Positions 11,287-56,826 of a stretch of DNA of 64,000 bases are shown here, one piece after another. The notes below the pieces were generated by a model. That model did no database searches, was not told the DNA's origin, and saw nothing but the letters and a program-made list of their open reading frames with translations. Every line of letters begins with the position of its first letter. Within the stretch, counting starts at the first letter, position 1. This stretch comes from Thermoproteaceae archaeon (GTDB taxonomy: Archaea; Thermoproteota; Thermoprotei; Thermoproteales; Thermoproteaceae). The stretch spans positions 1 to 64,000 of the forward strand of contig JAJHRB010000002.1 in NCBI GenBank assembly GCA_020833025.1, written 5' to 3'. Position numbers and translations under genes: made by a program.

Positions 11287-11683
11287 TCTTGTGCGCAAAC
11301 TGCCTTATTTTGGGCAGCAGGCTCTCCATCTGTCCCTGCCACAGCGGGCTTATGAAGGCTATCAGCCAGCCCTTCCCGCCCGGCAGCTCGAAGATCCCCA
11401 CCTTGTAATTCACGTACTTTATGTAAATGTACTGCAAGTCGCCGAGACTCTCGTCGTGATTCTGCCTGACTACATTTATCACCTCCACGAGGTTTGCAAC
11501 ATGTCTTAGCGTTTTTGCCGTGAGAGTGTTTGGCAAGTGGTGTATTACAGGAACGCCACTGCTGTCTAGTATGGTCACTCCGTGTATGGCGCTGTCTATA
11601 ATCTCGCTTATTATCAATCGCTTGAGATCCGTTGCCTCTGACACCTTTCTCTCCGGCTTCTGCGGCGAGACGTAAATCACCAC
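11267..11683 (-). CDS. Roadblock/LC7-like small protein (tentative)
   Basis: Fold-level resemblance only: DGVTILDSSGVPVIHHLP...VGIFELPGGKGWLIAFISPLW. Confidence 0.5.
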   Translation of the reverse strand: MVIYVSPQKPERKVSEATDLKRLIISEIIDSAIHGVTILDSSGVPVIHHLPNTLTAKTLRHVANLVEVINVVRQNHDESLGDLQYIYIKYVNYKVGIFELPGGKGWLIAFISPLWQGQMESLLPKIRQFAHKISQSLP

Positions 11684-28936: not shown

Positions 28937-28993
28937 CCGGGGGTCCCGCGGGCGCGCTCCCCCGCCGCTCTATCCAGGCTGAGCTACGGGCCC
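28937..28993 (-). tRNA. Orphan tRNA 5' half (GGGCCCG acceptor, D-arm, start of anticodon stem); candidate split tRNA or remnant
   Basis: GGGCCCGTAGCTCAGCCTGGATAGAGC-G-GCGG then GGGAGCGCGCCCGCGGGACC; no T-arm downstream; TATA-like ttattaa at 29013-29019. Confidence 0.65.
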
Positions 28994-48691: not shown

Positions 48692-48842
48692 GCGGCGGTA
48701 GCTCAGCCTGGTTAGAGCACCCAGGGGCGCCGCCCCGTGTAGGAGTCTGGCCGCGGAGGCCGCGCGGCCGGGCGGTGCGGCTCATAACCGGGGGGACCCG
48801 GGTTCGGGGAGTGCCCGCCCAGAAATCCCGGCCGCCGCACCA
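48692..48842 (+). tRNA. tRNA with CAT anticodon (Met or Ile2), two introns: 56 nt at 29/30 (48723-48778) and 17 nt in the T-loop (48806-48822)
   Basis: GCGGCGG...CCGCCGC-A-CCA; spliced CCC/GG-CTCATAA-CCGGG and CCGGG-TTC/AAAT-CCCGG; TATA-like ttttaaaag at 48664. Confidence 0.85.
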
Positions 48843-49054
48843 CTCTCTCAGAGCATGGGTTACGCACAGCGTGCGGCAACTCCCCCTGTCTCGGCATTCC
48901 GCCTCTTGCCCTCCCTGTTAGACAGCCTCTCCTCCTCCCTGCGCCCCTTCTCCAGCTTCTCCATCTCCCTCCTCTGCCTCTCCAAGTGTTGTAGTACGGG
49001 TATCTGCGGGCCCGCCTCATCGCCTCGCCTCCTTCTTCACCAGCTTCTCCAGCT

Positions 49055-49141
49055 CCTTCACAGCTTTCAAAAGATCCGCAGCGGGGCCTGGGCCCTGCAT
49101 GGCGCGAGGGCTGCGTCCTTCACAACTTTCAAAAGATCCGC
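49055..49141. repeat. Direct repeat of 25 bp (49055-49079 and 49117-49141)
   Basis: ccttcaca[g/a]ctttcaaaagatccgc. Confidence 0.8.
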
Positions 49142-49254
49142 TGTTCGTGTAGTCGGGGCGCAGGTAAGCGCCGCCTTGTGGCGGGATTGCGTTTTAAAAG
49201 AATTCGTTACTGCGAGACTAGGATACTGCAGAAATCAGTCTTCTGTCTGTAGAC

Positions 49255-49446
49255 AGAGAGAGTGAGCTTGTGCTTTTCCAGACGCCTTACGAGTCGGGGC
49301 GGCCTCACCCTGTGTTGATATACGGCAGGAGGAGAGTGGACAGGACATGGCTGGTTAAGAAGCTTCTGAGGGGGGGTCTTTACTTTTACGCCCAGAGGAG
49401 GTCTCTGCACGACGAGCTTTCTCGGGCCCTCCCGACCCGAGGGTAA
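49255..49446 (+). pseudogene. Fragment of archaeal AAA ATPase
   Basis: LVLFQTPYESGRPHPVLIYGRRRVDRTWLVKKLLRGGLYFYAQRRSLHDELSRALPTRG*; degenerate Walker A (GRRRVDRT). Confidence 0.6.
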
Positions 49447-50148
49447 TTGCTGTTGTTACGTATTGAGAGAGTATTCCGAGAGCCGCCCCTGGCAGCCAAC
49501 GGCGGCACGGCAGATGCACGTACAAGGGAGCACTGCGGCTAGGAAGGGCGCGGTCCTCTAATGTAGTATCGAAAGTTATTAAGTCTAGGCTTACCTAACC
49601 CTTACCAGTACCATGCAGAGGGCGGCAGAGATTTCTCTTTACTAAGTTCAACATGGTGCTCCGTGCACGGCGGTGGTGTACAAGGCGCTCTCCGTGGCGT
49701 TTAAGGCGTAGGACGGGGGCTGGCGACGGGCACAACGCCGTGAGGGGCAGGCCCGAGGTGCTTGAGCGGCAGACATGGCTGAATACGCTGGGGAGCTCTC
49801 CTACGCGCCAGGCGGCATCGCCGTAATCCCAGGCACAGTTTAAACTGCCGGATCCGGTGGAGGGGTTGTTGAGGGAGCGGCCTGAATTAGGCGTCTTCGG
49901 CGTGGAGTGGGTTAGGGCGTGGATTCACGTGGGGGAGAGGCTGGTGGAGGTCGCTCGTGTGTCGCGGAGGCTCCCGCGGGCGGTCGGGGTAATCAAAAGC
50001 AAGCCCGTGGACTGCATCCACCCCTACACGCTGGGAGTGTTACGTGGCCGGGAGCGGATACGTGGGAATCCTCTAGTCTGCGCCCTCATGCTAGTCCGGG
50101 CTGTGCTACCGGGGCTCTCTGGCGGCGTTAATGCAGATTGATTTTTCT

Positions 50149-50370
50149 TCACGTGACCCAGACGTTGGCCCTCCTCAGGTGCTCTACGAATTCCTCCAGC
50201 CCGAGCCCCGAGACTTTCTGGGAGAGACGGAGGTTTCCCGTCTCTATGAAGAGCTTGATTGCGGCTCTCACCCTCGGCGGCAGCGAGTTTATATAGTTCC
50301 AGTCTGCCTCCCTCCTTCTGAGCTCCCTGGCCTCCCTCTCGCGGTCGATCAGCTCCTGCAGTCTCTCCAC
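50149..50370 (-). CDS. Antitoxin-like small protein (paralog 2)
   Basis: DREREARELRRREADWNYINSLPPRVRAAIKLFIETGNLRLSQKVSGLGLEEFVEHLR; overlaps PIN gene by 22 nt. Confidence 0.75.
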   Translation of the reverse strand: MERLQELIDREREARELRRREADWNYINSLPPRVRAAIKLFIETGNLRLSQKVSGLGLEEFVEHLRRANVWVT

Positions 50371-50852
50371 CTCTGGATATCTCTCTGTGGGAATTTATGT
50401 TTTGTCTCCTCCTGATACGTAAAAATCGCGTCGTCGGGAACCAGACCCCTGCTCCTAAGCTCCCATAACACTTCGTATGCCCTCCAAACCCTCGCGGTGG
50501 TGTAGAGGAACTGCGCGGCATACGCCGCGCCGTTTTCAGACAGCGCAATGTATCCTCTGTCCTCAGCCACCGCAATGCAGTAGGCTTCGGGAAAGTCGAG
50601 CCCGCGAGTGGGCCCGCGGCGGCTCAGCTCCACCAGCCTCAGGGCGCGGTCGCGGTACTCGGGCAGGAGGGGAAATAGGGACATGTCCCCGGAGGCTAGG
50701 CGGTCGGCTATCCACATGAGGGTCCTCTCGCTCTGCACCTCATTTAGCACGTCCTCCGGAATCCACACGACGCGGAACACGCGGAAGAGGAGATCCCTGT
50801 GCGAGAACCTCGCCCAGTCTACCAGGAACGAGGTGTCCGCGATGGCCTCCAT
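50349..50852 (-). CDS. PIN-domain toxin (VapC-like)
   Basis: MEAIADTSFLVDWARF; EVQSERTLMWI; DFPEAYCIAVAEDRGYIALSENGAA. Confidence 0.82.
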   Translation of the reverse strand: MEAIADTSFLVDWARFSHRDLLFRVFRVVWIPEDVLNEVQSERTLMWIADRLASGDMSLFPLLPEYRDRALRLVELSRRGPTRGLDFPEAYCIAVAEDRGYIALSENGAAYAAQFLYTTARVWRAYEVLWELRSRGLVPDDAIFTYQEETKHKFPQRDIQRWRDCRS

Positions 50853-51070
50853 TAATTCACGTGGGGTATTCCCGCCCTGATGCGCAGCTCGTTAAACTCC
50901 TCCACTCTAAGCCCCGCGATTTTGGCAGCCACGTAGAGGTCCCCGGTCTCTATGTAAAATACTAGTGCCGCCCTGAGCCTTGGCGGCAGCGAGTTTATAT
51001 AGTTCCAGTCTGCCTCCCTCCTTCTGAGCTCCCTGGCCTCCCTCTCGCGGTCTTTGAGGTGCTCCTCCAC
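50852..51070 (-). CDS. Antitoxin-like small protein (paralog 1)
   Basis: DREREARELRRREADWNYINSLPPRLRAALVFYIETGDLYVAAKIAGLRVEEFNELRIRAGI; TAATG overlap with PIN gene. Confidence 0.78.
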   Translation of the reverse strand: MEEHLKDREREARELRRREADWNYINSLPPRLRAALVFYIETGDLYVAAKIAGLRVEEFNELRIRAGIPHVN

Positions 51071-51301
51071 GGGAGTGTGCGGCCGCGTAAATAAGTGGAT
51101 GCGGAGCCATGGAGGGCCTCGGGGCGGCTGCCAATATCTTGAAAGCGCAATAATCGAGTGCGGATTGATGCGCGGGCTGCCGCATTTCGCGCAGCGGTGC
51201 TAGTGTGCGCTATGAGAGGCGGCACTCACTATACAAAATTAAAAATAATTAAAAATAATGATATTATGACATTTATATTGTCGCGGGCAAGCCGCCTTGA
51301 G

Positions 51302-52123
51302 ATGCAAAAAGTTCGCATTATTACAAAATCCCTGGGGGGAGAGCCTCTCATTACAGTTTACGCGCTGGAGGCGGGCGGCGCCGCCATTGTCATCGATCCC
51401 GGGCCCGCGTCGCTCCACTCGCCGCTGGAGGCAGACGCCGTGCTGTGCACGCACCTGCACCTCGATCACTGCGGGTCTGCCGGCTACTTCGGCGCGCCGG
51501 TTTACGCCCACGAGAGGTACGCGGCGCACCTGCTCGACCCGTCGAGACTGTATGAAGCCGCCAGGGCCGTGCTGGGGCGGTATGCAGAGGCGTGGGGTGC
51601 CCCGCCGCCGTGCAAGAACGCCGTCGGCGTGAGCGACGGCGCCAGGCTCTTCGGCGCGATCGACGTGCTGCACGCGCCCGGCCACGCCCCGCACCACGTC
51701 GCGTACTACTGGAGGGACGGCGGGGTCTTGTTTGTCGGCGACGGCGCCGGCGGGTACATCCCGGAGCTGGGCGCGGTAATTCCCGTGACGCCGCCGCCGT
51801 TCCGCTTAGACCTCTACCTGCAGTCCCTCGAGAGGATGAGGGCGGTCGGCGCTGGCGCCATCTGCTACTCGCACTATTCCTGTACGCGCGACGTCGAGCT
51901 CCTCGAGGCGCACCGGCAGCAGGTGAGGGCGTGGGCCGAGGTCCTGGGAGAGAGCCCTGACATATCGCTAGACGAGGCGTTCAAGCTCCTCGCGAGGGAG
52001 GATGAGAACGCCGCCAGAGTACTTGCAGCCGGCGGCATTTACGCCGACCTCTACCTGCGGGTCAGCGTGCTGGGGTTTCTTGACTACTTGCGGAGGGCCA
52101 AGCCGCCGCACGACTGCCTTTGA
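51302..52123 (+). CDS. Metallo-beta-lactamase superfamily hydrolase
   Basis: VLCTHLHLDHCGSAGYFGAPVYAHE; HAPGHAPHHVAYYW; FVGDGAGGY. Confidence 0.92.
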   Translation: MQKVRIITKSLGGEPLITVYALEAGGAAIVIDPGPASLHSPLEADAVLCTHLHLDHCGSAGYFGAPVYAHERYAAHLLDPSRLYEAARAVLGRYAEAWGAPPPCKNAVGVSDGARLFGAIDVLHAPGHAPHHVAYYWRDGGVLFVGDGAGGYIPELGAVIPVTPPPFRLDLYLQSLERMRAVGAGAICYSHYSCTRDVELLEAHRQQVRAWAEVLGESPDISLDEAFKLLAREDENAARVLAAGGIYADLYLRVSVLGFLDYLRRAKPPHDCL

Positions 52124-52491
52124 GATCTCGCGCGCTCGCGTTTGGGAGGAAAAAGAATGGAGTCTTGCCTCGCCGCCCGCGCTTATCGGCGAGAATCACG
52201 AGCGCCGCCGCGGGCCGCCACCGCCACAGCCCACGCGATTGCGTGCAGGGCGTGGCCCGGCATTTCGTGTCTTCTGGCGCAGAGCCCCCTGATGCAGGAA
52301 TCCTGAAGGGGGCGTCAGTCCCCCGCCCCGCGCCCGCGGCGTTCCGTGTCTGCACCGAGGACGGGGCGCGGAGGCTCCTCCACTTCAGCGACGCGCTGAC
52401 GCGACTGCTGCAGGCTGACGGCCGCGCCTTGCAGCCTCCTCAGCGTTGAACTAAATGCCGGCCGGGCCTGGCGGAAGCCAGAAGTACGGAC

Positions 52492-52603
52492 TGGAGCCCC
52501 GGCCGGGATTTCTGGGCGGGCACTCCCCGAACCCGGGACCTCCGCCCGCGAGGCGGCCTACGGGTCTGCAGCCCGCCGCTCTACCGGACTGAGCTACCGG
52601 GGC
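52492..52603 (-). tRNA. tRNA-Cys(GCA) with two introns: 18 nt in variable loop (52539-52556) and 17 nt in T-loop (52512-52528)
   Basis: GCCCCGG-TA-GCTCAGTCCGGTAGAGC-G-GCGGG-CTGCAGA-CCCGT-AGG/TC-CCGGG-TTC/AAAT-CCCGG-CCGGGGC-T-CCA after removing introns. Confidence 0.9.
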
Positions 52604-53494: not shown

Positions 53495-53583
53495 TGGTGC
53501 GGGGGGTGGGATTTGAACCCACGCAGGCCTACGCCACAGGGACCTGAACCCTGCCCCTCTGGGCGGGTGGTGGCGGGCGCTGT
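53495..53583 (-). tRNA. tRNA-Leu(CAG) 3' half B, with complementary leader
   Basis: Leader CAGCGCCCGCCACCACCCGCCC, then AGAGGGG-CAGGG-TTCAGGT-CCCTG-variable arm-GTGGG-TTCAAAT-CCCAC-CCCCCGC-A-CCA; TATA-like cttaaaaata at 53603-53612. Confidence 0.88.
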
Positions 53584-54580: not shown

Positions 54581-55005
54581 TAGATCTTCCAGTATTTTCA
54601 TCCCTAGGAACATTTCTACCCGAAATTACCTCAAACGTCGTTTCTTTCAGCCTACGTCACCCCGGCATGCTGTGTGAGACCTCTCATCGTACACCGTATT
54701 CTCAATCGCTATTACTGAGCCATGCGGTCCTCACCGTCATTGCGCTCGGGAGTAACGCCGATGGGCGGCACCTCTCAATATTTTGCGGCCAACAAACAGG
54801 CAGGGGAATTACTACGCGTGGATAGAGACGCCACACCATCGTGGCTGGTGCTATCTCCCTGCCAGGGTCCGCCCCCGGCGATTCTCTAAACAAAAGACGA
54901 GAAATCAAGCTCCCGAGTCAGCACCTGGTGTACGCGGTGTCGGCAACTGAAATTGCAGGCAGGAGGCACTCTCAAGCCCTGGAGGGCAAGAATAGGGGCA
55001 GCAGG

Positions 55006-55050
55006 CAGCACCCGCCACCCGCCCCTTTGACCTGGCTCGGGCACCCCCGC
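55006..55050 (-). tRNA. tRNA-Leu 5' half B (partner: 53495-53583, CAG)
   Basis: GCGGGGG-TG-CCCGAGCCAGGTCAAAGGG then trailer GCGGGTGGCGGGTGCTG; TATA-like agtttatgtg at 55073-55082. Confidence 0.87.
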
Positions 55051-55542: not shown

Positions 55543-56826
55543 TTAGGAGGCGGCTAGGCGGCTGGTCGGCGGCGCTGGGCGGGACCCCTCGCCCGGCGGG
55601 GGGCGCCCCTCCATGAGAGGGCAAAGCAATGGGGCAATATAAGCATCCGGGGAGGAAAAAGAGGGAGGATTTGCGAGTCTCATCAGCTCGTCAAACCTCC
55701 TCTGCGCCCACATTGCCGGCACCCCGTCCCTGTGCACCTCTAGGCCGCACTGCGCGCATTTAACGCGCCTCTCTGGCAGCTCCTGCATTTTCGCCCCGCA
55801 CCTCGGGCACACTGTGCTGAACAGCCTCGCCTCAACATAGGGAACGCCGTGCCACTCCGCCAGCCCCTCGATCAGCCTCCTCAGCCTACCGAAATTTAGC
55901 AGCGCCTTTCTCTCTGCTGGGTACTTGTTGTCTTGCTTGAGCTCTCTCATAGAGCTGTCGTCGGGGACGTCAACGACAATCGCCGCCTTGCGCTTTCTCG
56001 CGAGCCAGACGAGCTCCCTGGCGGCGCCCACCTCCCACTCCCTCAGCAGCCGCCAGAGCCTGCTCTTCGCGCTTCTTGCCATCTTGCAGTATGGATCCCC
56101 CCTCTTTGCACAGAGCGAGTCGAGCTCCGCGGCCCTCCTCTGCATGTGCACGATCTTCGAGACGTCGGGCCTCAGCGCGCCGCGCCTCAGCACCCTGTTA
56201 CGCTCTACAACAGCGTAGGTAATGCCGTTGTGCAGCGCGTTGAGGTCTATCGCGAGCACGCGCTTGGGCTCGACGGGCTCCACTTCGCGCCTGAAGACTA
56301 GAGCGATATAGAGCTTTGCAGCGCGGCTCCCGCGGCTCCGGCCGACCCACACCGCCGCCAGAACAAGCTTCGCGCCCTCTCTCACACGCTCTAAAATCTG
56401 CTTTGTGGCGTCCTCGCCCAGTGGCAGCGCTATCGTGCCGGTGCCGAGCTTCCTCACGCGGACCTTGCGTTTAGGCACGTCGGCGAGAACGCCTCTGCTG
56501 ACGTCTCTCTCATCGCTAAGTCTTAACTGGGCATCGAGAATTAGCGGCACCTTCATCCCGCGCTTAACAGCGTGTGCTCTTAGCCACTCGAGCATGTTCC
56601 ACGCGTGCACGAACTTTTGCGCGAGATATCTCAGCGGGTTTTCCTCCGGCATCGGTACTTTGCCGCCGCTTTTAGCCCACTCCGCCGCCCACCTCCTGAA
56701 CTCCTCCTGCGCCCTCAGAAGCGCGGGGATCTTCTGCTGCACCTCCGGCGGCAGCCCGAGGATGTCGTACTTGAGCAGCAGCGCCCTGTACGCCCTCCCT
56801 CTCATGCCGGGCGGCCGCCCGCGCAT
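55543..56826 (-). mobile_element. tnpB: TnpB (IS605/IS200-type RNA-guided nuclease family)
   Basis: RVLAIDLNALHNGITYAVVERN; AAIVVDVPDDSSMRELK; FSTVCPRCGAKMQELPERRVKCAQCGLEVHRDGVPA. Confidence 0.88.

Follow-up and report, generated by a model that had tools for sequence, protein, structure and literature searches.

Why do two tRNA genes with different bodies carry the same insert in the T-loop? The question arises in a 64,000-nt stretch of contig C89 (the window), part of a 1.56-Mb metagenome-assembled genome (MAG) of a Pyrobaculum-like archaeon (126 contigs, 94% complete). Here the genes for tRNA-Met(CAU) and tRNA-Cys(GCA) contain an identical 17-mer, GGGGAGTGCCCGCCCAG, at 48806-48822 on the plus strand and 52512-52528 on the minus strand, exactly where a preliminary description of this DNA had placed the two copies. 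The evidence set out below makes it very probable that these inserts are introns at position 56/57, removed by the tRNA splicing endonuclease, that they belong to an old family recently multiplied in this lineage, likely by spread at the DNA level, and that the same processing supports a set of tRNA genes kept as separate halves. Our analysis concerns a single MAG and short introns, with scans prone to losing weak matches, and functions are assigned to the introns and halves of the MAG from sequence. The relatives compared included Pyrobaculum sp. WP30 (G008) and a Pyrobaculum MAG (G007), of the same genus, and Thermoproteus sp. CP80 (G018), of the same family.

An identical insert in tRNA-Met and tRNA-Cys

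In both genes the insert interrupts the T-loop as had been described, with TTC on one side of the 17 nt and AAAT on the other. ARAGORN detected neither gene in unspliced form, and Rfam detected the unspliced Cys gene and missed the Met gene. With the predicted introns removed, ARAGORN read tRNA-Met(CAT) and tRNA-Cys(GCA). Because removal restores the TTCAAAT found in relatives, we place the splice point at 56/57; for the same reason, position 57/58 (TTCG/.../AAT) was set aside for Met. The two genes and their introns are as follows.

48692-48842, plus strand: tRNA-Met(CAU), elongator type, three introns, CCA encoded (sequence, ARAGORN reading of the spliced form, orthologs)
48723-48742, plus strand: predicted 29/30 intron of tRNA-Met, AG...GTAG type (sequence; a similar intron there in relatives)
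48744-48779, plus strand: predicted 30/31 intron of tRNA-Met (sequence; boundary inferred from the anticodon stem)
48806-48822, plus strand: 17-nt T-loop intron 56/57 of tRNA-Met (splicing restores TTCAAAT, as in six relatives)
52491-52603, minus strand: tRNA-Cys(GCA), two introns, CCA encoded (Rfam; ARAGORN reading of the spliced form)
52512-52528, minus strand: 17-nt T-loop intron 56/57 of tRNA-Cys (the WP30 ortholog also has the intron)
52542-52559, minus strand: 18-nt variable-loop intron of tRNA-Cys, AGGCCGCCTCGCGGGCGG (near-identical inserts in other tRNAs)

We take the Met gene (48692-48842) to be the elongator, its anticodon stem being without the three G-C pairs of the initiator; a separate CAU gene on C35/C54 resembles an initiator.

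A family of T-loop introns

Neither the window nor the rest of the genome holds a further exact copy of GGGGAGTGCCCGCCCAG. At up to three mismatches there are 5 matches against 0.74 expected, a number reached in 0/100 shuffles. We rejected the idea of a general repeat: the close copies all lie in tRNA T-loops, except for one in a coding-like stretch.

The insert had been described from two tRNAs, which proved too narrow a picture. Checking the tRNA genes genome-wide for the 17-mer gave the exact form in Met and Cys only and related introns in others, and at least 13 tRNA genes of the MAG have T-loop introns of one family: Met, Cys, Pro(GGG), three Val, Tyr, Ile(GAU), Ile2(CAU), Thr(GGU), Phe, Asp and Ser. 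This catalogue comes from a 37-position model of the interrupted T-arm together with reading of the sequences around matches. WP30, G010, Thermoproteus genomes and others have versions of their own, and all follow one pattern, a purine, a hairpin and GCC(Y)A (core GCCYA). Across 67 introns, the innermost hairpin pair is G-C in 28, C-G in 35 and a C-C mismatch in 2, a compensatory exchange which indicates that the hairpin is under constraint. A nearest neighbor of an intron comes from the same genome in 42/67 cases and from the same tRNA of another genome in 12/67.

The variable-loop intron of tRNA-Cys belongs to a second family. An 18-nt insert, AGGCCG-NNNN-CGCGGGCGG, is common, with small changes, to Cys, Trp, Lys(UUU), Arg(UCU), Arg(UCG), Arg(GCG) and Asn, and was absent from the corresponding WP30 genes that were read.

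Predicted removal of the introns

Two endonuclease genes are present in the MAG, one for a catalytic subunit (TIGR00324, 1.4e-29) and one for a beta-like subunit. This gene content is that of an (alpha-beta)2-type endonuclease, able to cut relaxed motifs, and the arrangement has been linked to non-canonical introns (PMC4033280). Folding at the splice sites gives the T-stem, a UUC/GAA helix and a hairpin, with small bulges, and the hairpin covaries. From these sequences, their family pattern and covariation, and the endonuclease genes, we infer transcription, splicing and ligation. The 17-nt introns are predicted to be excised by the (alpha-beta)2-type enzyme from a relaxed bulge-helix-bulge made up of the T-stem, the short UUC/GAA helix and the intron's GGG/CCC hairpin, and ligation would then give TTCAAAT.

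Age and spread of the T-loop introns

The elongator tRNA-Met of six relatives, at loci read directly, has an uninterrupted T-loop (TTCAAAT), and the Met intron was therefore most simply gained in the MAG lineage. The Tyr intron is identical in the MAG, WP30 and Thermoproteus CP80, three species of two genera, which makes the family old. An orthologous tRNA without the intron was thus found in relatives for Met and not for Tyr, and similar introns across different isoacceptors of one genome, as expected of transposed introns, are present in the MAG. The Cys intron occurs in WP30 as well, with several differences, whereas Met and Cys are identical in the MAG; the donor therefore likely lay inside the MAG genome. 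The preliminary description was right about a T-loop intron, about the Thermoproteales setting and, for tRNA-Met, about recent spread; the spread is not a two-gene event, and in other tRNAs the family is old. Deep conservation, which it had named as the finding that would tell against spread, applies to the Tyr intron and in part to Cys, shared with WP30, and not to Met.

Direct traces of copying are found elsewhere in the genome. Over 105 nt that extend past the tRNA ends, the Cys gene and its counterpart in the Thr 3' half agree at 92%. Val(CAC) (C29:15231) and Val(GAC) (C125:3474) are 99.6% alike over 226 nt, flanks and introns included, and differ by one base, in the anticodon; this is a recent anticodon switch after duplication. 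In both cases, Cys/Thr and Val/Val, tRNA 3' parts have been copied at the DNA level, which accounts for part of the spread. An old Thermoproteaceae family of T-loop introns would thus have multiplied recently in the MAG lineage and entered tRNA-Met after the split from the other sampled species, most likely by duplication or gene conversion of tRNA 3' parts with near-identical T-arms.

Several points weigh against this account. The predicted fold departs from the strict 3-4-3 bulge-helix-bulge motif. The resemblance of introns to others of their own genome exceeds chance (0/2000 label shuffles were as extreme) in a procedure that ignores the relatedness of the tRNAs. Intron absence in relatives is secure only at the directly read loci, as the R1 scan scored the top 133 candidates per genome. 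Finally, Met and Cys have only the T-arm and adjoining bases in common, so that for this pair conversion and direct intron insertion look alike.

The last point bears on an alternative, reverse splicing, that the preliminary description raised alongside gene conversion. On this view intron RNA would have entered a second tRNA by reverse splicing, and recombination would have brought a DNA copy of the product into the chromosome. The Met and Cys introns are identical while the bodies and flanks differ, and identity stops near the T-arm, as such a route would have it. However, nothing specific for reverse splicing or for a reverse transcriptase route emerged, the Cys/Thr and Val/Val copies were made at the DNA level past the tRNA ends, and with near-identical T-arms short conversion tracts would leave the same picture. 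We regard reverse splicing as unlikely.

If instead the 56/57 introns were all ancestral, and alike through concerted evolution or selection on the endonuclease motif, the identical Tyr introns in two genera, the Cys intron common to WP30 and the constant GCCYA would follow. This is improbable, and already weakened for Met, whose T-loop is uninterrupted in six relatives; Met and Cys also have unpaired loop bases in common, and the introns cluster by genome. That the inserts are retained and the two genes are pseudogenes or artefacts of a 126-contig MAG assembly is hardly credible, as both lie inside a 67-kb contig, are the sole elongator Met and Cys genes seen, keep CCA and promoter-like boxes intact, and have inserts that fold and covary.

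tRNA genes found only as halves

The processing capacity predicted to remove T-loop introns would also let the genome keep many tRNA genes as halves. Listing the genome by D-arm and T-arm left eleven 5' parts and thirteen 3' parts that lack the other part of the gene; a TATA-like box lies upstream of nearly all these orphans. Thirteen isoacceptors were found only as halves: Leu(UAG, GAG, CAG, CAA), Gln(CUG, UUG), Lys(CUU, UUU), Asn, Arg(UCU), Trp, Thr(GGU) and Ile2(CAU). Once the halves are joined at known intron positions, ARAGORN reads each with the expected anticodon; Ile2 is labeled Met by its CAT anticodon, our assignment resting on an Ile-like acceptor and D-arm, and the joined Thr(GGU) halves have one mismatched anticodon-stem pair. 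Searches by D-arm, T-arm, Rfam and R1 in this 94% complete MAG found no intact copy of the 13 split tRNAs. Since several are the sole tRNA for their amino acid, trans-splicing would be essential. Six halves lie within the window (Leu A, Leu B, Leu(UAG) 3', Leu(CAG) 3', Arg(UCU) 5' and Gln(CUG) 3').

44350-44379, plus strand: lone 5' half of tRNA-Leu (half A), with TATA-like GCTTTTAAG ~25 nt upstream
44380-44401, plus strand: trailer of Leu half A, complementary to the leaders of Leu 3' halves
48449-48459, plus strand: promoter-like CTTAAAAAC before the Leu(UAG) 3' half (by sequence only)
48477-48510, plus strand: leader of the tRNA-Leu(UAG) 3' half
48511-48568, plus strand: 3' half of tRNA-Leu(UAG), ~120 bases before the Met gene (joined halves read tRNA-Leu(tag))
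55021-55050, minus strand: lone 5' half of tRNA-Leu (half B); trailer at 55004-55020
53495-53552, minus strand: 3' half of tRNA-Leu(CAG); leader at 53553-53582
28962-28993, minus strand: lone 5' half of tRNA-Arg(UCU); trailer at 28944-28961, 3' half on contig C13
415-493, plus strand: 3' half of tRNA-Gln(CUG), with a canonical intron inside; leader at ~397-414, 5' half on contig C14

Trailers and leaders of matching halves are complementary over runs of 8-18 bases. When all were paired against all in an energy matrix, Asn, Trp, Lys(UUU), Arg, Ile2 and Gln(CUG) were best in both row and column, Lys(CUU) was best in its column only, and Thr and Leu(UAG) were weak. Counting against this pairing signal, several GC-rich pairs were matched in energy by random shuffles. 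The two Leu 5' halves (A and B) encode the same exon, and several Leu 3' halves can serve as their partners. Among the split tRNAs, an additional T-loop intron is present in two of the 3' halves, and a cis intron in one of the 5' halves. From the promoter-like boxes and complementary ends, we infer that the halves are expressed and trans-spliced.

Could two matching halves instead belong to one transcript with a very long intron, or could the halves be remnants that integrated elements left at att sites? The WP30 halves are collinear, at distances of 0.5 to 3.8 kb, and contig C12 of the MAG shows an apparent att-type tRNA-Ser 3' remnant. We consider this unlikely for the MAG. A cis intron cannot account for its Lys(UUU) halves, which occupy opposite strands of a single contig, and most other halves are spread over different contigs. 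The halves also have promoter-like boxes of their own, the searches turned up no intact gene for any of these essential tRNAs, and the complementarity of 8-18 bp is specific.

Some individual loci deserve description. Transcription of the Lys(UUU) halves (C81:350-800) would run in opposite directions, outward from a palindrome, CTCCTGGCTGGCGCGCGCCAGCCAGGAG, that has a TATA-like box on each side. In Ile2, the 5' half (C100:10470) has a complete 29/30 intron-like insert before the 30/31 split and the 3' half (C13:7140) has a T-loop intron, so that two cis and one trans splicing events would be needed. On C12, an intact tRNA-Ser(GCU) (497-576) and a 3' remnant of the same tRNA (11322-11396) stand 10.8 kb apart with similar 3' flanks; the pair looks like an integrated element with attL/attR in tRNA-Ser.

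An element in tRNA introns and a possible origin of the splits

The split points of the MAG tRNAs (29/30, 30/31, the Gln D-loop and the Leu D-stem) coincide with cis introns of WP30 (Leu, Gln) or of other MAG tRNAs. The complete WP30 genome has five tRNAs, Asn, Lys(CUU), Arg(CCG), Trp and Thr(GGU), that are each interrupted at 30/31 by a copy of the same element; the copies measure 0.5 to 3.8 kb and are about 70-85% alike in aligned parts. At the left end of the element, a hairpin and TTTTT follow directly after the trailer (terminator-like); its right end bears a CTTAAAAA box and a leader that is complementary to this trailer. These interrupted WP30 tRNAs may be transcribed as one long transcript across both halves. 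The longest copy encodes a 1043-aa protein with no significant match in Pfam, NCBIfam or PHROGs, and its identity as PaREP2 is our guess from the literature only. Viral contigs and plasmids yielded no copy of the element, and a near-exact pattern search did not find its right end beside tRNA halves outside WP30.

Two remnants of the element lie in the window; beside MAG halves, element DNA was found only at Leu half A.

44444-44515, minus strand: remnant of the WP30 element, adjoining Leu half A (tblastx, 75% over 24 aa, E 3e-6)
49847-50039, plus strand: second remnant, from the element's left gene (tblastx, E 3e-12)

The DNA that separates the Leu(UAG) halves has a higher AT content than the sequence around it. 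These observations are consistent with the idea that tRNAs became split when the element inserted into their introns, but they are no proof of it. On balance we favor a lineage in which trans-splicing produces roughly a quarter of the tRNAs, the sole Trp, Asn, Lys and Gln tRNAs among them, the splits having probably arisen as copies of a mobile element entering tRNA introns supplied a terminator, a promoter and complementary ends.

In Thermoproteus CP80 (stretch L181, ~2650-2850), a tRNA-Tyr 3' part stands without a nearby 5' part, and upstream of it lie a sequence related to the protein of the WP30 element and a similar promoter and leader (read by eye), which suggests the same interruption in a second genus. 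Two other genes of the window were noted. A 491-aa open reading frame between the Leu(UAG) halves (45664-47139, plus strand) has TAWHC and GDSGSPV motifs as in chymotrypsin-like proteases and no match in Pfam, NCBIfam or PHROGs, and a TnpB-like protein is encoded at 55546-56826 on the minus strand (Cas12f1-like TNB domain, E 7e-10).

Comparison with published systems

Similar introns in different tRNAs of Thermoproteales have been put down to large-scale transposition (Fujishima et al. 2010, as presented in PMC4033280, PMC4090602 and PMC10714607), and the spreading T-loop intron of the MAG is this already published phenomenon with new sequences. Relative to that work as reviews present it, the MAG adds a new genome, new 56/57 sequences, covariation, presence and absence in Met orthologs, and two cases of copying at the DNA level. 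A 56/57 intron is known from tRNA-Pro(UGG) of P. islandicum (Sugahara et al. 2007, as cited in PMC4090602). It shares its position and the multi-intron type of tRNA with the MAG introns, which differ in isoacceptor and are GC-richer; the presumed P. islandicum genome carries a GCGG...CCGGCC version in tRNA-Pro.

In a 2011 survey, split tRNAs were absent from all five Pyrobaculum genomes, and no genome had more than six (PMC3218864). We found no later report of split tRNAs in Pyrobaculum in the literature searched, subscription journals being mostly outside the search, and the apparent count in the MAG appears to exceed that of any microbe in the literature surveyed. As in Nanoarchaeum equitans, Caldivirga maquilingensis and Desulfurococcales (PMC3218864, PMC4390854), the MAG halves have promoter-like boxes of their own and complementary leaders and trailers, splits fall at intron positions, and one 5' half possibly serves several isoacceptors. 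The MAG differs in having 13 isoacceptors rather than at most six, in its genus, Pyrobaculum, and in the further T-loop introns of two 3' halves and the cis intron of one 5' half. A mobile-element model of tRNA disruption was proposed for Caldiarchaeum tRNA-Thr (PMC3293823), where, as in WP30, a repeated element lies between a tRNA fragment and a tRNA. WP30 differs in that copies of one element occupy the same 30/31 site of five tRNAs, with ends that carry a terminator-like trailer and a promoter-bearing leader.

Significance

The 17-nt intron of tRNA-Met offers a clear-cut example of an intron gained recently. Debate since 2005 has turned on whether split tRNAs survive from early life or arose late, from introns and mobile elements. 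One genus here presents, at matching tRNA positions, cis introns (WP30 Leu and Gln), introns interrupted by an element (WP30 Asn, Lys, Arg, Trp and Thr) and dispersed halves (the MAG), and this three-state series makes the late-origin route directly testable. If the halves are what they appear to be, the maximum number of split tRNAs per genome rises from the six of the 2011 survey to thirteen, and split tRNAs would account for the many tRNAs of this MAG that standard tRNA finders overlook.

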